Below, piece after piece: positions 20,801-61,753 of a stretch of 64,000 bases of DNA; within the stretch, counting starts at the first letter, position 1, and every line of letters starts with the position of its first letter. Below the pieces are notes generated by a model. It did no database searches and was not told the origin of the DNA. It worked only from the letters and a program-made list of their open reading frames with translations. The translations under genes and the position numbers were made by a program. The stretch comes from Plasmodiophora brassicae (taxonomy: Eukaryota; Endomyxa; Phytomyxea; Plasmodiophorida; Plasmodiophoridae), in the NCBI GenBank assembly GCA_039704465.1, contig JASFAU010000011.1:434001-498000 (forward strand), read 5' to 3'.

Positions 20801-21724
20801 TTACTGTTTGGCAGATCTGCAGCCGTCAGGAGCGAGGGCGTAATCGTCCTCATCGATTGCTGGACTGACGAATCGATAGGCATCAAACCGATGGTTCAAC
20901 CTGGAGTCGCAGTGAATGTAGAACTGGGACCCACAAGCGCCATATCTCTTCACAGGTCGGATGTAAACGAGTCGGCCGATACGAGAATGCAGGGCTGCCA
21001 TCGTACACATGGCACACGGCTCATGTGTAACGAGCAAGTCTAACCCGCGACACAAATAGGGGTCTTGGGACCACGATCCTTTGCTGGCAATCGATTTATC
21101 GCAGTTGGCACGAGCGACCACATCGATAACTCGGATAACCGCATGATCCAGTGGATTCGGTTGATTACCAACCCGTTGTACTGCTTGGCCGACCACGACG
21201 CCGTCATCGTCGACAAGTGACGCAGCAATCAGATCGCCCCGAGGAAGGCCTTCCACGAGCTCAATGATTCGAACTCGAGTAGAGGACGTCAGCGGATCGA
21301 TAGGATTATGTCGAGGAGGTTGAGCACGCGAGGACAACGGCCAGATTTTACGCCAAGTTTGGTGTTCAACATGCGACATGGGTGGACACGACGGGACTTG
21401 TACGATGAAATGTGCACCATACTGCAGTATCCTTGTTCTACAGGTTTCGTCGAGTGTTGAGAAGTGACCATCATCGCAGATGAGAATTCGTGCCGTCGGC
21501 GATCCTCTGTCGCGTTTGACGCGGCCCAGATGCGATAAGCGCGGCAACGTCGTCAGGGACAGCGACCCCAACAGGTCGAGAATTTGGCTGATATTCCGGG
21601 CGACGACGTCGACAACAACGACATCGATTAATGGCGGTGACAATCGATCAACGTGAACTAACACGACACGTTCCAGCTGTGGTTCCTGAGCGCTCGCTGC
21701 GCACTCCGCCGCGGCATCTGTCAT
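20801..21724 (-). CDS. ADAT3: tRNA-specific adenosine deaminase subunit 3 (Tad3/ADAT3)
   Basis: Single-exon 307-residue protein. The C-terminal deaminase domain has HAVIRVID at residues 194-201, where the catalytic Glu of HAE is replaced by Val, the hallmark of the non-catalytic Tad3 subunit. The zinc site is completed by HEPCAMCTMAALHSRIGRLV (PCxxC at 236-240). YGACGSQFYIHCDSRLNHRF matches the family C terminus. Tad3 pairs with Tad2 to convert A34 to inosine in tRNA anticodons. The N-terminal ~150 residues are the tRNA-binding extension usual for the family. ATG at 21724. Confidence 0.92.
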   Translation of the reverse strand: MTDAAAECAASAQEPQLERVVLVHVDRLSPPLIDVVVVDVVARNISQILDLLGSLSLTTLPRLSHLGRVKRDRGSPTARILICDDGHFSTLDETCRTRILQYGAHFIVQVPSCPPMSHVEHQTWRKIWPLSSRAQPPRHNPIDPLTSSTRVRIIELVEGLPRGDLIAASLVDDDGVVVGQAVQRVGNQPNPLDHAVIRVIDVVARANCDKSIASKGSWSQDPYLCRGLDLLVTHEPCAMCTMAALHSRIGRLVYIRPVKRYGACGSQFYIHCDSRLNHRFDAYRFVSPAIDEDDYALAPDGCRSAKQ

Positions 21725-22447
21725 TGTGGGGCTGCTGGCCGGCCCGTGTACGCCTGAACGTCAGGTACCAGCCTACCAGGCGGGCATTGTTCCACTCAAC
21801 ACCCAAAACATTATTCCTGAGTGCATCGTCACTCTAAACCAGGCATTATGTTTTATAAAATATGTCAGAGCGCCAACCCGAATGCAGGCCTCAACATTCG
21901 AGGAAGCTTAATTGCGGCCATCATACTGTGCAACCTGGCTGCAGAGGTATCAAGACGCTGATTTGTGACAGTCAACCTTGTCGGCGGTGTCGAGCGCAAT
22001 TATAACAACCTCTGGATACTCGGCAGACAGATCATACAGTATTATGGCCACGACCAAGGTGTCCTCGATGTCTGCATTCTTGGCGGCCATAGCTTTGGAC
22101 TGGAATGCGACCAGAATAGGTTGTTTCGCAGGGACTTATCGAAACGATCAACGAGATCGTTCCAGGCGTTGCTCGAGCGCCGCCGCACTGTTCACCCGGC
22201 CCCGCTGCGTACGCCGCCAAGTGAGCCGAACCAAATCGGCTCAGTTGGCGGGGGATCGCATTCGCACCTGGGGACGTGCGGCGGGTCCATTTCAGGCGCC
22301 CCGGGTACATCGTCGTCATCCCGTGGCGGACCGCGCGATGCGACGCCATGGCCCCGGTTGGTGTCGGTGGTCCGAATCCCCCCCCCCCCCCCCCTTCCCC
22401 CTCCTCGCCAGATTTTATTCGGTGTGCCCACGTGAGTCCCAGTCGTC
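21725..22447. other. Intergenic region with a 17-nt poly-C run
   Basis: This divergent space lies between ADAT3 (minus) and the acyl-CoA-binding protein gene (plus). A C homopolymer spans about 22378-22394. Overlapping long frames here look like composition artefacts with no domain. The poly-C run is close upstream of the downstream gene and may vary in length or be a sequencing weak point. Confidence 0.4.
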
Positions 22448-23111
22448 ATGCTATCGTCGTCGTCGTCGCAACGCTCTGCATCCAAGCGCCGCTGGGCCGC
22501 GATCGCGGTTGTTGTCGTCGGTGTCGTTGTTGCCATCGCCACGGTTGTCGTCGCGGTTACCTGGCCCAAGATATCGGGGAAGACACCAACACCGAGAATT
22601 CGCCTTTCGGTCCGGAACCTACGTCGGGCCGGGATCACATCAGAAACTGATATTCAGTGATAGGCCGCGTTCAATGATGCCGCCGATAACGTGAAGACGC
22701 TGGGGAGCCTGGACGATGCTACAAAGCTGAAACTGTATGGCCTCTACAAGCAAGCAACCATGGGCGACTGTGACACTGGTACGGGGTCCCCACGTCTTCC
22801 GCGGTCGCGTCGAACTTACCGATTCGTCCCCAGAGCGCCCGAGTGTCCTGAACATGAAAGAGCGCGCGAAGTGGGACGCCTGGAAAGCTCTGAGCGGCAA
22901 GCCCAAGGCCGACGCCGAGTCTGACTACATTCGGCTTGTTAAATCGATGCTGAACAAGCAGCCGACCGGGTCCGACGCTCCTCCAGCGGGAGCGGAGCCC
23001 GGATGGGTGTCGACGTGCCGCAAGGCCGCCGGTGACCTGTGGGCGTACATCAAAGCGCAGTACGCCAAGGTCCAGGACCGCATCCCATTCGGGACCAAGA
23101 ACCAGGCGTGA
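22448..23111 (+). CDS. Membrane-anchored acyl-CoA-binding protein
   Basis: Exon 1 encodes a Ser-rich start, a basic patch KRR and a transmembrane helix (AAIAVVVVGVVVAIATVVVAV). A 54-nt intron (ending GTGATAG) leads to AAFNDAADNVKTLGSLDDAT and KLYGLYKQATMGDCDT. A 55-nt intron leads to ERPSVLNMKERAKWDAWKAL and DAESDYIRLVKSML. These are the ACBP signatures YGLYKQAT.GD, RP and K.KWDAW. The C-terminal ~45 residues after the domain are extra. Binds long-chain acyl-CoA esters; the N-terminal anchor suggests an ER or other membrane site, like membrane ACBPs of plants. The last part of this gene is also present as a remnant at 24664-24720. Confidence 0.88.
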
Positions 23112-23206
23112 CCGTAACTTCATAATCTACGTCACCCTAGCATACAGTTAAATTCGACGAATGACCCGTCAGTCATTTAGTGCTGCGTGTACGCCAGGAC
23201 AGTGGA

Positions 23207-24392
23207 TCACATGCGGGTAGTGACGATGATGATGACAATGCCAATGGCGATGAGCAGGACGACAGCCACGGCAGCAGTGGCATTGCGACTTAGGCTCCAG
23301 CTGTGCCATCTTCGATGTGTATGCTGAGGATCTAGCCCTGGCACGTCAGGGCTGACAGTCTGCGATCCTTCGATCTGAATCTGAACGCCGTCGCAGGGGC
23401 ACCCAGTTGCACGGCCAGGTGCGTCGATTGAGATCTGTGATACTTGTTCTGGGGCGATCGTCAACAGCATGATGGTGGCCATCAAATCGAAAACCATCAC
23501 CCACGCCTCTTTGACTTCAGCGTTGAACCTCTTCTGCGTGAACGCACACCCGCCACTCAGAATGGTCGCTTCGTCAGCTACGCGGCAGGAAACGCCTACC
23601 TTTCCGAGGATGTCTTCAAGGGTCCCAATCAGACTTTCGCCCACGACCCGGAAGTGCTCCGGGGCGAGGTCCAGATACCGGTGCACTTCGCCCAGGTACA
23701 CGAGCTTGTTGACCAGCTCCTCGAAATTGTCCAAAATGTTGACCGCGTCCGTCATCATCTGCCCGAACATCAGCTCCTGCTTAGACGTGTCCTCCTTGAA
23801 CAACGCGCGCGACTCAGGTGCTTTCGTGAACATATGATTGTAGAAGGCTTTCTGCAGTGTCACCCCATCGCGACCCTGCAGCGTCATGGCCTCCGCCCAA
23901 CTGGACTTGACGAGTTTGGTGACTCTCGCGGACAGGCGCATGAATTGGCCGCCGGTGACCATCTTGCCGACCTCACTCTGGGCTTCTTTCCACAGCGACC
24001 TGTCATTTGGCGACCGGAGCAGGGCATCGCGCAATGATCCACTGATGTTGATCTCGTGACTGGACCCTTCCTCGATATACTCCTTGATCATGTCGTCCGC
24101 ATCCGTCCGCGACGCCTTACTGCATTTCCATCTTCAGTGTAACCTTGTGAGTCGATAAAATCGTTGTGCACCTTTGTGTCTCTTTGAGATAGGCGGTCAC
24201 GTGTCGCCAGAAGTAGACGGACTCCAACGACACCTCGCGCTCGGCGAACCTCAGCAGCATCCGCTCGCAAGCCTGTCGTGACCCAGCGACATTAAGCAGC
24301 CAGGAACACATGCATGGGCACGTTGTGCCTCAGACCTTGCTCTGGAGGAAGAGCGACAAAATTCCACCTTCTTCCGGCGACGATGGCGCCAT
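23207..24392 (-). CDS. RGS-globin-transmembrane fusion protein, copy A
   Basis: Exons 24392-24336, 24272-24172 and 24119-23207, with introns of 63 and 52 nt. The first ~100 residues form an RGS domain: SLFLQSKACERMLLRFAERE, VSLESVYFWRHVTAYLKE, then IKEYIEEGSSHEINISG and a closing RSLWKEAQSEVGKMV. A globin follows: LVKSSWAEAM (helix A), SRALFKED (CD1 Phe), VYLGEVHRYLDLAPEHFRVV with the likely proximal His in LGEVH, and GESLIGTLEDILG. The protein ends in a transmembrane helix (TAAVAVVLLIAIGIVIIIV) with almost no tail. This predicts a heme-bearing RGS protein on the cytosolic face of a membrane. The RGS domain is shorter than usual at its C-terminal end. Confidence 0.82.
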
Positions 24393-24768
24393 CACGGCAG
24401 CGTTCGCGTCTTGCGTGGAGTGCACCTCAGAAGGCACGCGTTAGGCCAGCCTAGCTGTACCAAGTGGTACCATGCAATCGGCGGATCGGCCGGCGTTGTA
24501 CAACTGTAACAGGGGAAGTCCTGAGGCGACGTTTGTCCAGGGGCCCGGTCTGTGCCGGGCACATAAGCGTCCGCACGGGCGGCCTCCTGAGCATGCGACA
24601 GCACTGTCTTACACGATTGAGCCAGGGCAGCGTAGTCTATTAACTGGAAACGGTGCCCGGCCCAGAACCGCATCCCATATGGGACCAAGAACCAAGCGTG
24701 ATCGTGACTTCATAATCCGTCAATGACCAGCCATTTATTGAGGGTTGTGAGTACGCCAGTACAGTGGA

Positions 24769-25952
24769 TCACATGCGGGTAATGACGATGATGATGACAA
24801 TGGCAATAACGATGAGCAGGAAGGCAGCCATGGCAGCAGTGACATTTCGATTTAGGCTCCAGCAGTGCCATCTTCGATGTGTATGCTGAGGATCTTGCCC
24901 CGGCACATCAGGGCGGGCAGTCTGCGATCCTTCGATCTGAATCGGGATGCCATCACAGGGGCGTGCAGTTTCAAGTCCAGATAGGTCGATTGATAGTTCT
25001 GATACTTGTTCGGGGTTGATCGTCAACAGCATGATGGTCGCCATCAAATCGTAAACCATCACCCACGCCTCTTTGACTTCAGCGTTGAACTTCTTCTGCG
25101 TGAACGCACACCCGCCTTTCAGCATGATTGCTTCGACAGCTACGCGACAAGAAACGCCTACCTTTCCGAGGACGTCTTCGAGGGTCCCAATAAGACTTTC
25201 GCCCACGACCCGGAAGTGCTCCGGAACGAGGTTCAGGTAACGGTGCACATCGCCCAGGTACACGAGCTTGTCGACCAGCTCCTCGAAGTTGTCCAAAATG
25301 TTGACCGCGTCGGTCATCATCTGTCCGAACATCAGCTCCTGTTTCGACATGTCCTCCTTGAACATCGCGCGCGACTCGGGCGATTTCGTGAACATATGAT
25401 TGTAGAAGGCTTTCTGCAGTGTCATCCCATCGGGACCCTGCAGCGTCATGGCCTCCGCCCAACTGGACTTGACAAGGTTGGTAATTCTCGCGGACAGGCG
25501 CATGAACTGGCCGTCGGTGACCATCTTGCTGACCTCGCTCTGGGCTTCTTTCCACAGCGACCTGTCATTTGGCGATCGAAGCAGGGCATCGTGCAAAGAT
25601 CCGCTGATGTTGATCTCGTGCCGGGACCCCTTCTCGATATACTCCTTAATCATGTCGTTCGCATGCGTCCGCGACGTCTCACTGCATTTCCATCTTCAGA
25701 ACGACCGTGAGGGTCAACGGAATCGATGCACCTTTGTGTCTCTTTGAGATAGGCGGTCACGTGTCGCCAGAAGTAGACGGACTCCAACGACACCTCGCGC
25801 TCGGCGAACCTCAGCAGCATCCGCTCGCAAGCCTGTCGTGGCCCAGCGACATTAAGCAGTCGGGGACACATGCATCGGCACGTTGTGCCTCAGACCTTGC
25901 TCTGGAGGAAGAGCGACAATATTCCATCTTCCTCCGGCGACGATGCCGCCAT
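24769..25952 (-). CDS. RGS-globin-transmembrane fusion protein, copy B
   Basis: Same exon structure as copy A, with ATG at 25952 and introns of 63 and 50 nt. Protein identity to copy A is high over RGS (CERMLLRFAEREVSLESVYF), globin (VYLGDVHRYLNLVPEHFRVV) and the terminal anchor (AFLLIVIAIVIIIVITRM). Differences cluster in the linker between globin and the membrane helix (APGRATGCP versus LSGLETARP) and in intron 2. All features needed for heme binding in copy A are kept. Arose by tandem duplication; both frames are intact, so both are probably functional. Confidence 0.82.
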
Positions 25953-26239
25953 CACAGCAGCGTTCGCGTCTTGCGTGGATGCGCCCCCGAAAGCAAGCGT
26001 TAGGCCCGGCTAGCGGTACCAAGTGGTACCATGCAATCGGAGGATCGATCGACCTTGTACAACTGTACTAGTAGCTGTCTGGGGAAGTTCTGTGGAGACG
26101 CGTGTCCAAGGGCGCTCGGTGCCGGACACCGCTTAGAGCGCCCTCTGGACATGCGACAGTCATGTCATAAACGATAGAGCCAGGGTAACGTAGTGTATCA
26201 TCTGCAACGGGTGCCCGCGCATACGACATGACGAAGTCT

Positions 26240-26769: not shown

Positions 26770-27340
26770 TCGCTCCGACTTACGTGACGGCGAGCACCTG
26801 GACGTGACGGATGGCGCCGTTTGCCCAGCTCTTGATCAGGTCAGTGAGAAGGCCAATGTGCCACGTGTACAGCGACCGCATGTACGGTTGTATCTAAACC
26901 TTGATCAGCGAACAGGACAAAGTTCACGCAACAACAAAGGCGTCCAGACCGCCGTATCGAATATCGGTCGAAACGTGATGATCAAAGCGAAGGCAACGTC
27001 CAAAATGACTGCCGTCTTTGTCTTGTTCGGCCCCAGGTTGTTGATCTCCCAGCGTGACGGCGAGAACAAGGGGTGGACAGCTCAAGCTGGAGAATCACGA
27101 CAAAGTAGAACGAAAACCGATCGTAAAGGGCGAAACAGGAACGGAGCCATTACACGCGCAGCATGACATACTTCGGCTCACTGAGAATTGGAGATCGTCT
27201 GTTGCGTGCAGGAGAACGTCGTCAAATAAACGAGCCACAGTGGTCGCGTCGCCAGTGGTACAAAGAACCGGAGGTTTACCAGGATCATCATCCAGGCCGC
27301 CGTATCTCATGATCCGATTGTCGGAAATGGCAGAAGCCAA
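26770..27340 (-). pseudogene. Frameshifted TLC-domain paralog
   Basis: The frame at about 27119-27080 reads SFYFVVILQLELSTP, matching FAFYGVAFLLFELSTP of the intact TLC gene at 28241-29366. After a one-base shift the next frame reads LFSPSRWEINNLGPNKTKTA and AFALIITFRPIFDTAVW, LLLREL, matching the intact copy's ALRWAILNMKLDKPQ.. and VFREL region. No GT..AG pair explains the shift. Upstream AAWMMILVNLRFFVP and downstream MRSLYTWHIGLLTDLIKSWA look like other parts of the same gene. It is either a decayed paralog or a base missing in the assembly. Confidence 0.5.
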
Positions 27341-27783
27341 ACGCTAGTTTATGGGCTCGCGCGTATGCTCAAACAGTTCGAGCGCCTAACACATATATAA
27401 GTTCCTATTGTCGGAAATGGGCAGAAGTCAAGCGCTTTCTGGAATCGCGTGTTTGAGGAGTTCTTCGACAAGATCCACATCAGCACGCGCCAAGCTCGGT
27501 CGCGCTCGCACAGAGCCCAGACCGCTTGCTTCGCCGTCGGTCTTTCCGCCAGCACAGCAGGTGTCCTGACACTCAACAAAGTGCTACCGCGTTCTACATG
27601 AATTGGGCAAAACTGGAATGCGTTTAACCAAGACGAGAGAAATCGATCACGCGCGTTCAACCATTGTAAATACGGCCAGAATCTCACACCCTTCATCTGC
27701 CGGGAAACGACATCCGAGCCGCGACATACTGGCCGCCTTTGAAATGGTTTTACATGGATACAACGTGCGGGACAACGTTATGG

Positions 27784-28240: not shown

Positions 28241-29366
28241 TTAATCGGAATGCATATGTTGCGTAGGAGGCAGCGGTCGTGTGCTCGAACCCCTTGCTCG
28301 CTTGATCGTCTTCCGGAGCATGCTGACGATCTGCGTCGAGAAGAAGACGTTCAGGCAGTTGAAGAAGGCGACGACCAGAACAATGAGACGCGCGAAATTC
28401 TGGATCAGTGCAGGGCTCGTTGTCTGTAGGCCCTGTCCGGCAAGCGGAAACAGATTCTCGTCGAACGTCCCATGCACCGCGACACGCCAAAGCTCCCGGA
28501 AGACTCTCGGCGATACAACGCCCATGCCGAACCCCAACCGGACAGCGAAGAACGTCAGCGCGAACGCGGCGTTCAGCACGTTCATCGTCTGTGGCTTGTC
28601 CAGCTTCATGTTGAGGATCGCCCAGCGCAACGCCAGGAACGGCGTGGACAGCTCGAACAAGAGGAATGCGACGCCGTAGAACGCGAACCGACTGTAGAAT
28701 GCGATCATGAACGCAATCATCGCCATGGCGTGGTGCAACATGTACATCGGCTGGTGGTCGATCGGCGATCGGATCAAGTCCATCACTGCACAGAACAGAG
28801 GAGTCGTTAGCGCACACGTCCGGCCCATGGTCTCGATCATCATTGTACGACGTACTGTCGGAGAGGAAATACCCAGCGGAATGGAGGACGAGCGTGCACG
28901 CGGCAGGATCCTCGGCAAAGATGTGATCCGCGTGCATCGGTTGGGACGGTCGCGCGCACAGAGCAAGAGCCCCGAGACCGGACACCATCGCGTGGATGAA
29001 CGATGCGAACTGGCCGCTTCCAGCCACTGCGAACCGGTTAAGGGCCTGCCCATTCGCAAAGCGCCGTCGTAGACGTCGGCTTTGCGACGCAAACACGGTG
29101 AACCCGATTGCAACCAGCTGGTACAGGACAACGAACGCGACGAAACGTGGCCATAACGGCTGCCCTGCCATCGGCAACACGGACGCCAGTTTCGGTGACG
29201 TCAGGATCCCCAGCATGGCCGACGTCGACGCGGCCGTTGTCGCGAGATGACGACCGAGGCTGATCTCCGGCCGTCGCGCCACGACCGTCGAATTCGTCTC
29301 AGCATCAGCGACCCACGCTACTGCGACGGCGGTCGCCACGAACGCAAGCACGGTCAGTTTCGACAT
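28241..29366 (-). CDS. TLC-domain multi-pass membrane protein
   Basis: Two exons, 29366-28856 and 28785-28241, with a 70-nt intron. The protein starts with a hydrophobic leader (MSKLTVLAFVATAVAVAWVA) and runs through several membrane helices. TLC signatures are FASFIHAMVSGLGALALC, HSAGYFLSDMMDLIR, MYMLHHAMAMIAFMIAF (conserved HH) and LLFELSTPFLALRWAI, with a last helix near LIVLVVAFFNCLNVFF. The family includes ceramide synthase, TRAM, CLN8 and TMEM56; the lack of the ceramide synthase Lag1 motif points to the TMEM56/CLN8-like side. Site: ER or Golgi membrane. A frameshifted paralog lies just downstream. Confidence 0.82.
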
Positions 29367-29522: not shown

Positions 29523-30031
29523 TCAGAACTCGTAGTCGGACGGCTGGTGGGCGCCGCCGCTCTGACGCAGCTTCTTCACGATGTCGTCCTTGGTCATCTC
29601 GCCCGGTTTCTCGATCTGGAACTCGATGTGCGTGTTGCTGATGACCTTCTTCAGTTCGGTGCGGTGCCCACCCGTCTTGGCGCGCTGCATCGGCGGCGCC
29701 GCCCCCGGCAGGTACGACACGAACACGAACTTGGCGCGGCGACTCTCGACTGACCCGCGATGATCCACGCCGAAGCTAGGCGAACCAGCGCTGTCTCAGA
29801 TAACAGCACCGGTGGCGCTCGTCGGTGTTCGTACCATCGGAACACGCCAAAGACGATGTCGTCGGCGAGCTTGCTGATGAACTCGTCGTATCCGCCCGCG
29901 CCACGCCCAACCTCGACGAGCTCGCGCGGGTTCGCAGAATTGTAGCCGACCAGCAGCCAGTTTGTCGGTGTCTTGTCGTCGACAACGTCCTTGTAGGCGG
30001 CAGCAATGGATGCGTTGATCGTGATCGACAT
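29523..30031 (-). CDS. Coactosin-like ADF-H actin-binding protein
   Basis: ATG at 30031 opens MSITINASIAAAYKDVVDDK, PTNWLLVGYN, SKLADDIVFGVFRC. A 59-nt intron (29834-29776) joins FGVDHRGSVESRRAKFVFVS, YLPGAAPPMQRAKTG, ISNTHIEFQIEKPGEMTKDD and a C terminus GGAHQPSDYEF. This follows the ADF-homology domain of coactosin-like proteins in length (~150 residues) and motif order, with the RR.KFVF strand before the actin-contact helix. Expected to bind F-actin in the cytosol. Confidence 0.87.
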
Positions 30032-59843: not shown

Positions 59844-60095
59844 GACGCCGCCACTGCCTACCTACACGTGTCACGCGATACAACGGAGCTGTGCACCGGC
59901 CCCATCCGAAGACGTTGCGCCGGAGCTGCACGCAGTGCGCCACTGTGTTCACCGGGAGCTGCTCACGATATATTGATGAACTTGAGCCAATTTTGCAGGC
60001 GGCGGCGGGTGCCGAGATATACTAACGTGGCGCGCGCGCGCGCGTCCGTGTGTGTATGCGTTCATCCGTTCTGCCGCAATATCTGCCGTCAGATC

Positions 60096-61753
60096 ATGTC
60101 GCAGCCGATCCTGGCGCTGACGATGGCGCTTGCCATCGTCATGCAGCTGGTGTTCCCGCTCGTCGTCTGGGCCAGGCGCATGCGTCGGGATTGGGCGACC
60201 GACGACCGTATCGGCATGGCGACATCGACGATAAGCTTGAGGAGCAACGGGTCGCCGTTGCTTCGCGTCCTTCAGCGACGAGACCGCCGCAATCGTGCCA
60301 GTATTGTCACGACGCTTGTCCTCATGCTGATGTCGTTGTTCGCTTTCCTGGGAGCGGTTTCCTGCCTACTGATGCTCACACAGTCCATCGTCGTCGACTC
60401 GCTGTTCCACATCAGCTCCCAGGCGCAGTGCCTATCGTTCCTGTTCGTCGTCCTCCCCGTCATCATCGAGATCCACAGCCGCGTTGTTCCCATGCGCACC
60501 GTCCTGATCCTCCTCGGCATTGTCGCCCTGTACACGATTTACAACCTCGTCGTCATCGTCGCCACCATCATCAACAACGGCAGCACCGACATGAACCCGC
60601 TGACCGTCGTCGGCGATTTCCAGGAAACCATCGTCTTCTCCATTGTCCTTGCCTTCAGACTCTGGTCCGCGGTCACCATCTTGAAGGCGCAGACCGGTGT
60701 CAGGAATTACATCACCCTGCTCGCCCGATGTCTACAGGAACGCGGCGTCGAGATCGGTATCCTTCTGGTTCTGGCTCTGAAGCAGTCCATTCTACGATTC
60801 GCGGTCGTGCCGCTGATCGCTTCCAACGGCACCAACGTTGCCATCGCGAGTTCGTCGTCGGTCGCGCTCACGTCGATGCTGATGATCGCCAGCGTCATAC
60901 ATGGGGCGGGTAACGGCGAAGATCGCGATTCGACGGGGTCAGGGACGACCGAGGCGGAGGTTGACAACGACGAGAGCGCCGTCCGACTACGTGCTGTGCT
61001 CAGCAACGCCAAGTCGTTCCGGCAGTTCTCTGCGTTCTGCAAGGCGTCGCTGTGCCAGGAGAACGCCGTGTTCTGGAAGGACGTGTCGAACTACAAGGAC
61101 AAGTTGTACCTGGCGATGCTGGACGCGAAACGGCCGCTGACAGGTTCCGCCAGGCATCACGTCGTCCAGCGGATGAACGCGATCTTCGACCGGTTCCTGA
61201 AGGACGACTCGCCGTTCCAGGTGAACCTCAGCTTCGAAAGCGTCCGGTGCGCGCAAGCCGTCGTCCAGCGTATTAACGAACGGGAGAAGAGCCATACGAG
61301 GACCGACAGCGGGCAGGAAGGATCCGCCGCCTCCGTATCCTCATCGACAGCCGCCTCAAAGACAAAGCTGAACGGGACGGCAACGAGCGGATTGACGTGG
61401 GCCAGCGGCGCTACGACTCAGGATTTGGACGACAAGAGGGACGACGCCGAATTCATTAAGCGGGAGCGTCCCGCGACGAATGCGGCCGCCCAGGCCAAGA
61501 TCGACCCCGTCATCTGGAACGATATGTGGGCCATGTTCGTCGTATTCGACGAGTGTCAGAAGGAGGTATACGACCGTTGCGGGTAGCGGTGTCCCCGTTC
61601 GGGCAGTCGCTGATGCGTCATGTTTGGCAGGCGTTCTGCACCATGAAGAACGACGTGTTCGCCAGGTTCACGAATACGAAAGAGTACAAGAAGTTCCAGG
61701 CCCAGTCGGAGATCAACGACGTCAAAGTTGACGTTATCAAGAACTTCATGTGA
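60096..61753 (+). CDS. 7TM-RGS protein 2
   Basis: Start at ATG 60096 (MSQPILALTMALAIVMQLVF). Seven helices follow, including IVTTLVLMLMSLFAFLGAVS, QAQCLSFLFVVLPVIIEIHS, TVLILLGIVALYTIYNLVVI, ETIVFSIVLAFRLWSAVTIL and EIGILLVLALKQSILRFAVV. The RGS domain reads LSNAKSFRQFSAFCKASLCQ ENAVFWKDVSNYKDKL, HHVVQRMNAIFDRFLKDDSP FQVNL, FVVFDECQKE and after a 41-nt intron (61566-61606) SLMRHVWQAFCTMKNDVFAR. An acidic and Ser/Thr-rich insert lies within it. This is the receptor-like RGS design, similar to the gene at 53018-54927 but diverged. A GC dinucleotide run (about 60026-60038) lies upstream. Confidence 0.8.

Follow-up and report, generated by a model that had tools for sequence, protein, structure and literature searches.

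Two intact tandem genes of Plasmodiophora brassicae, located on the minus strand of the 64,000-nt window analysed here (contig JASFAU010000011.1, C11:434001-498000; the genome counts 25,344,181 bases in 21 contigs), each join an RGS domain to a 3/3 globin, a linker, and a putative C-terminal tail anchor. Together with a diverged paralog on another contig (C6), they constitute a three-member RGS-globin family, apparently intact. The reading favoured here, with a probability of about 0.52, is that these proteins would act as tail-anchored, heme-gated regulators of heterotrimeric G-proteins, with predicted heme binding and control of GAP activity.

Gene structure and tandem duplication

The eukaryotic origin of the window is evident from its introns and gene content. 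A preliminary description of this DNA had reported two intact genes between positions 23207 and 25952, each with RGS, globin, and a tail helix. This holds for the spliced models listed below, in which both domains pass the Pfam cut-offs in both copies (positions are those of the window).

24769..25952, minus strand: copy B, RGS-globin-tail-anchor gene, ATG at 25952, stop ending at 24769, four exons (25952-25896, 25832-25732, 25681-25162, 25095-24769), 334 aa (spliced model and Pfam)
25833..25895, minus strand: copy B intron 1, 63 nt (spliced model)
25682..25731, minus strand: copy B intron 2, 50 nt (spliced model)
25096..25161, minus strand: copy B intron 3, 66 nt, GTAGGC..ACGCAG, in frame, no stop (score gain, alignment, model confidence, C6 paralog intron)
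23207..24392, minus strand: copy A, RGS-globin-tail-anchor gene, ATG at 24392, stop ending at 23207, four exons (24392-24336, 24272-24172, 24119-23600, 23533-23207), 334 aa (spliced model and Pfam)
24273..24335, minus strand: copy A intron 1, 63 nt (spliced model)
24120..24171, minus strand: copy A intron 2, 52 nt (spliced model)
23534..23599, minus strand: copy A intron 3, 66 nt, in frame (spliced model, score gain on removal)
23160..26217, unstranded: tandem duplication, 23160-24659 vs 24722-26217, 87.4% identical (self-blastn)

The sequence ERMLLRFAEREVSLESVYFW is common to copies A and B. Beside the tandem unit, the 3' end of an acyl-CoA-binding-protein gene is duplicated as well (23069-23127 vs 24659-24717, 88.1% identical); the 3' part of this gene lies on the plus strand (22731-23111, ACBP 42.6 bits), with its tail repeated at 24659-24717.

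All introns of both copies start with GT, end with AG, and measure 50-66 nt; several gaps between neighbouring G-alpha exon matches of the same genome measure 47-59 nt. The last open frame of each gene extends over 308 residues from stop to stop, including a 66-nt in-frame stretch. We interpret this stretch as a third intron, so that the protein has 334 aa. This reading is preferred because the Pfam globin score rises when it is removed, from 40.3 to 50.9 bits (copy B) and from 35.2 to 46.7 bits (copy A), the match then reaching profile position 115; because the insert is missing from all 25 bacterial globins aligned (25 of the 68 bacterial globin loci); because an AlphaFold2 model of the copy B globin with the stretch kept has ten-residue pLDDT means of 58, 46, and 76 within it, vs 82-98 elsewhere, the lowest confidence (<50) falling on residues 119-129 inside the stretch; and because the C6 paralog has an intron at the same position and phase. 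On this evidence, a two-intron model (356 aa, with the 66-nt stretch coding) was dropped for the three-intron model. Retention of intron 3 may possibly constitute an alternative splice form.

The RGS domain

25504..25907, minus strand: copy B RGS domain, residues 16-112, exons 1-3 (Pfam; coordinates by hand from exons)
23942..24347, minus strand: copy A RGS domain, residues 16-112, exons 1-3 (Pfam; coordinates by hand from exons)

Profile searches of the spliced proteins with PF00615 and PF00042, which the preliminary description had proposed as a check, support both domains in copies A and B. Pfam RGS (PF00615) gives 38.6 bits for copy B and 40.3 for copy A, with a curated cut-off of 23.9, and a model derived from the other RGS frames of the genome gives 56.4 (B) and 54.6 bits (A), with E-values of 1.2e-16 and 4.1e-16 among 616 sequences. 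The exon-3 open frame holds the second half of the domain in its first 120 residues, for which the genome-built model gives 30.4 (B) and 28.8 bits (A), the best of 400 shuffles reaching 11.5. Taken alone, the copy B exon-3 frame scores 40.7 bits for Globin and 17.0 bits for Pfam RGS, the latter below the cut-off. In this single frame, a heme-type globin is joined to the RGS part, a signalling output domain, as in a globin-coupled sensor in the functional sense, and the globin is predicted to control that output. Compared with PDB sequences, the RGS part yields weak matches (best E 0.0025, with RGS6).

The residues contacting G-alpha, which we take to be Glu87, Asn88, Asn128, and Asp163 in RGS4 numbering, were located by alignment to RGS7 and to the genome RGS frames. 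The whole genome gives 97 RGS matches at E up to 10; the counts below cover the loci of 30 of these 97, in 57 rows that include fragments and repeats from overlapping loci. The Glu87 equivalent is kept in all three RGS-globins, which also share Asn at the Asn128 equivalent with 36 of the 39 lettered genome rows. At the Asn88 equivalent, Asn (22) and Ser (11) occur among 38 lettered rows; copies A and B carry Ser, and the C6 paralog carries Arg, which was not met in the other genome RGS rows. The Asp163 equivalent is variable (Asn 13, Asp 11, Gly 7, Ser 3, and Glu 2 of 36 lettered rows), and is Gly in all three RGS-globins, as placed for the C6 paralog through its alignment to A and B. Since Ser 88 and Gly 163 occur among the genome's other RGS rows, these changed states need not mean decay. 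By its sequence, the RGS part of copies A and B appears unremarkable within the genome's RGS set, although GAP activity is not readable from it.

The globin domain and its heme pocket

25018..25485, minus strand: copy B globin domain, residues 119-252, exons 3-4, split by intron 3 (Pfam, alignments, AlphaFold2 model, fold match 3s1i; coordinates by hand)
23456..23923, minus strand: copy A globin domain, residues 119-252 (Pfam, alignments; coordinates by hand)
25243..25245, minus strand: copy B proximal His F8, His199 (alignments; coordinates by hand)
23681..23683, minus strand: copy A proximal His F8, His199 (alignments; codon confirmed in the sequence)

The Pfam Globin profile (PF00042, cut-off 22) scores 50.9 bits in copy B, 46.7 in copy A, and 53.3 in the C6 paralog. 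Pocket positions were assigned by alignment, using helix position names that we take to be those of Hell's Gate globin I. All three paralogs carry Tyr B10, Phe CD1, Gln E7, Phe E11, and His F8. The CD1 Phe and proximal His previously reported for the two copies are, thus, found in the C6 paralog as well, and the earlier statement that both copies keep their heme residues is borne out for Tyr B10, Phe CD1, Gln E7, and His F8. The motif LGEVHRYL, given earlier for the proximal His region of both genes, is exact in copy A only, copy B reading LGDVHRYL.

The same pocket is widespread among the bacterial globin loci, with Phe CD1 in 68 of 68, Gln E7 in 66, His F8 in 67, and Tyr B10 in all 68, the Tyr count being partly by construction, as one of the two bacterial scan patterns contains Phe-Tyr at B9-B10. 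Position E11 is Leu in 63/68 and Phe in 5/68 bacterial loci vs Phe in 3/3 RGS-globins, and E10 is Lys in 51/68 bacterial loci vs Met in 3/3 RGS-globins. Pockets with Tyr B10 and Gln E7 are those of tight O2 binding and NO dioxygenase-like chemistry. A flavohemoprotein model (NCBIfam, NO-inducible) matches over its globin part, with 60 bits for copy B and 50.8 for the C6 paralog (cut-off 432).

Hell's Gate globin I comes first among the PDB sequence matches, with E-values of 1.9e-14 and 2e-14 for the C6 globin and 5.9e-9 for the unspliced, 356-aa copy B. The AlphaFold2 model of the copy B globin (25024-25497), built from the sequence that retains intron 3 and an alignment including 25 bacterial relatives, has a pLDDT of 86.9 and a myoglobin-like fold; its top fold match is the Hell's Gate globin I structure with bound oxygen, 3s1i, at a TM of 0.92 (normalized to target length) or 0.77 (query length). 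Profile, His F8 and Phe CD1, and predicted fold all place the domain among heme-type 3/3 globins, and it is predicted to bind heme. When viral contigs were searched with the alignment of the three proteins, 45 stretches matched, but no relative was encoded in any of them.

Fusion joint and C-terminal tail

24781..24837, minus strand: copy B tail-anchor helix, residues 313-331, three residues before the stop (hydropathy; helix in the poor full-frame model)
23219..23275, minus strand: copy A tail-anchor helix, residues 313-331 (hydropathy)

The Pfam RGS match ends at profile position 105 of 117, and globin helix A starts a few residues later (helix 3-18 of the model starting at residue 115). AlphaFold2 was also run on the 308-residue open frame with two sequences; with a pLDDT of 45.8, this model was set aside for fold claims. 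In it, one helix spans the joint (63-82) at low confidence. A helix that is shared by the RGS and globin domains, or directly abutting between them, may exist at the joint, and is proposed as the route of coupling.

The hydrophobic segment at the C-terminal end has a best 19-residue mean Kyte-Doolittle value of 3.25 in copy A and 3.44 in copy B, and a hydrophobic helix is also present at the C-terminus of the C6 paralog. Elsewhere in the proteins, 19-residue windows exceeding 1.6 are absent from copy B and the C6 paralog, and amount to two in copy A, at residues 235-236 (globin H helix). The full-frame model has a helix at 282-307, with pLDDT of 42 for 281-290 and of 77 and 74 for 291-308. A single hydrophobic helix within about 30 residues of the C-terminal end, and none elsewhere, is what characterizes tail-anchored proteins; the RGS-globins show this pattern, and membrane insertion is predicted.

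A third paralog, and selection on the pair

The whole-genome search with PF00042, which also matched 3 of 14 control genomes, gave three matches here: copies A and B, and C6:163220-163465. The gene at the latter locus was modelled at C6:162732-163972, with three introns, 353 residues, and the RGS-globin-tail order, and is 47% identical to copy B. As this diverged paralog keeps the domain order, the fusion is older than the tandem duplication. Its RGS part gives no Pfam match at E up to 1, and is detected only with the genome-built RGS model (18.7 bits, E 6.6e-5); nevertheless, 15 of the 16 residues 12-27 of copy B are identical in it. A search with the C6 protein (residues 1-246) returned nine exon matches at E up to 10, all within the three RGS-globin genes.

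It was considered whether RGS-globins are the genome's only globins, and this was rejected: the three loci with PF00042 belong to them, but two protoglobin-family (PF11563) matches, of 57.2 and 41.8 bits and apparently tandem copies, occur at C19:238074-239354. One of these copies is followed, as judged by eye, by a C-terminal hydrophobic stretch, and the genome may, therefore, have tail-anchored protoglobins.

Over the RGS and globin domains, copies A and B show 25 nonsynonymous changes (590 sites) and 26 synonymous changes (166 sites), with pN 0.042 vs pS 0.157 (one-sided Fisher p 2.1e-6). Purifying selection is detected for RGS alone (p 0.003) and globin alone (p 0.00017), and constraint on the linker and tail is not significant (p 0.17). 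The earlier view of selection on both copies with differing linkers is, thus, sustained for the domains and their contrast with the linker; as for both copies being selected, Nei-Gojobori counts on two sequences would look alike if only one of the copies were selected. A and B are nearly identical over their first 53 codons (2 synonymous and 2 nonsynonymous codons), and intron identity is 58/63 for intron 1, 38/52 for intron 2, and 58/66 for intron 3. This pattern suggests gene conversion at the 5' end of the copies.

The G-protein setting

G-alpha yields 82 matches in the genome, in 34-36 clusters by position, and the heterotrimeric G-protein set is large for a 25 Mb genome. In a pattern scan of 12 fetched G-alpha loci, switch I reads TTG followed by Ile or Met in eight; a ninth has TTG followed by unlike residues. 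Guanylate-cyclase-family matches number 10. Exon-wise searches of the genome, which intron-split genes can escape, gave no match for truncated globin or for nitric oxide synthase; with no match for the latter, internal NO would need another source.

Six other RGS frames were scanned for further domains. One each has a cNMP-binding, an FHA, a protein-kinase, and a Myosin_TH1 domain over cut-off, and two have RGS alone; based on these matches, the genome frequently pairs RGS with further domains. Some of the other RGS frames look polytopic and 7TM-like by eye. A globin match was found neither in these six frames (E up to 0.001) nor in the RGS frame at 59844-61586 of the window. This last, a 580-aa open frame on the plus strand, has its RGS match (40.3 bits) after several hydrophobic segments (by eye) and is perhaps 7TM-RGS-like.

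Proposed function and alternatives

In the proposed mechanism, the RGS domain would bind activated G-alpha at the membrane and shorten its signal. The globin, joined to it with almost no linker, would bind heme, its A helix beginning approximately where the last RGS helix would lie. Shifts in globin shape with ligand or iron redox state could then make the RGS face more or less accessible, or alter its geometry. Control of G-protein deactivation by heme ligand or redox state, as suggested in the preliminary description, is therefore plausible. At this stage, we infer the binding of heme, the GAP activity, the allosteric coupling, the insertion into the membrane, and the signal sensed. The likely input would be NO or the heme oxidation state rather than ordinary O2 swings, because tight O2 binding and NO chemistry are what a Tyr B10/Gln E7 pocket suggests; graded O2 sensing is unlikely, given such a high-affinity pocket. 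The heme-gated regulator is favoured by both domains passing their cut-offs, the third paralog, the kept pocket, the selection on the pair, the G-alpha genes of the genome, and the precedent of the bacterial fusion HGbRL (see below). Weighing against it are the partly kept RGS contacts, the C6 RGS falling below Pfam detection, the weak RGS match in the PDB, and the nitric oxide synthase search.

Heterotrimeric G-proteins are usually regulated by receptors. A bolder version, to which we give a little less than even odds, is that heme provides a direct input to G-protein switch-off, the gas or redox state at the membrane setting G-alpha lifetime through a globin that abuts the RGS domain or shares a helix with it. 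If true, it would add to receptor and effector control another route, one retained across two or more rounds of duplication, by which heme chemistry (O2, NO, redox) in a eukaryote would bear directly on the turn-off of G-alpha, without a second messenger.

Alternatively, the globin could be the working part, removing NO or buffering reactive oxygen locally, with RGS as an address label docking on active G-alpha near receptors. The pocket, which fits the flavohemoglobin or single-domain F-globin type (60 bits for copy B and 50.8 for C6 with the NCBIfam model), and the partly altered RGS contact positions are consistent with such a role. However, the proteins have no reductase domain (Pfam, E up to 1), the flavohemoprotein cut-off of 432 bits is far from being reached, and the RGS domain is under purifying selection with its Asn128 equivalent kept. 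We give this alternative about one chance in four.

Less probable still is a heme-independent scaffold, in which RGS without GAP catalysis would be a G-alpha binder or dimer module and the globin a folded spacer. It would account for the changed Asn88 and Asp163 equivalents and the very divergent RGS of the C6 paralog, and a heme-free globin domain in signalling is known from RsbR of B. subtilis, according to the available part of PMC4476040. Key heme residues are, nevertheless, kept in all three paralogs despite 47% identity, and Ser 88 (11/38) and Gly 163 (7/36) are also met among the genome RGS rows and need not mean decay.

Finally, that the fusion arose from misjoined neighbouring genes or a splicing artefact, or that the copies are pseudogenes, is very unlikely, because a single exon encodes the second half of RGS together with most of the globin; moreover, three loci have a common order, A, B, and the C6 model all have intact frames, and A vs B comparison indicates purifying selection.

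Relation to known systems

Globin sensors are known mainly from bacteria, with bacterial outputs. Among them, globin-coupled sensors of the HemAT and RsbR class, with S-family globins and bacterial outputs, follow the same logic of a heme globin plus a signalling output; RGS-globins differ by their F-type globin, which is C-terminal to RGS. Hell's Gate globin I and the bacterial single-domain F globins share the fold and pocket type (26-41% identity in the best segment), but no RGS fusion or tail is reported for Hell's Gate globin I, and the bacterial F globins mostly have Leu at E11 and Lys at E10, instead of Phe and Met. Flavohemoglobins are alike in their globin half; the FAD/NADH reductase is what RGS-globins lack (no Pfam match, E up to 1). 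On the RGS side, RGS6/7, GRK-type kinases, and 7TM-RGS proteins likewise have an RGS core joined to targeting or sensing domains.

The nearest working analogy is HGbRL of Methylacidiphilum infernorum (PDB 3wfw), in which a globin 38% identical to Hell's Gate globin I is fused to a Roadblock/LC7 domain, of a family including the GTPase-activating protein MglB, and for which the authors propose a ligand-driven relay (PMC4476040, as far as its available text goes). In HGbRL, as in RGS-globins, a related globin is thus fused to a domain from a GAP-containing family. It differs in being bacterial, in its output domain being C-terminal and unrelated to RGS, and in its other target class, and a tail anchor is unmentioned in the same text. 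This parallel hints at more than one origin of globin control over GTPase-activating modules.

The preliminary description knew of no described RGS-globin protein. Consistently, a globin joined to RGS was not found in a literature search (with most subscription journals outside its coverage), nor could a description of the domain order RGS-globin-tail anchor be found there; an RGS-globin that is annotated elsewhere but undiscussed is possible. In the available parts of two papers, one on Guillardia chimeras, with a putative cytochrome b5 part (PMC4101818), and one a fungal globin census (PMC3287990), 'RGS' is not mentioned. The RGS-globin protein itself is small (334 aa).

Neighbouring genes in the window

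Three further features of the window lie on the minus strand. A cytidine/deoxycytidylate deaminase-like open frame is found at 20801-21760 (PF00383, 36.5 bits), possibly, as a guess, a tRNA-editing deaminase. A TLC-domain (TRAM/LAG1/CLN8) gene occupies 28241-29200 (50.6 bits), and an apparent decayed partial copy of it, recognized by eye, lies near 26905-27343. A Cofilin/ADF-family exon (47.1 bits) is found at 29523-29795.
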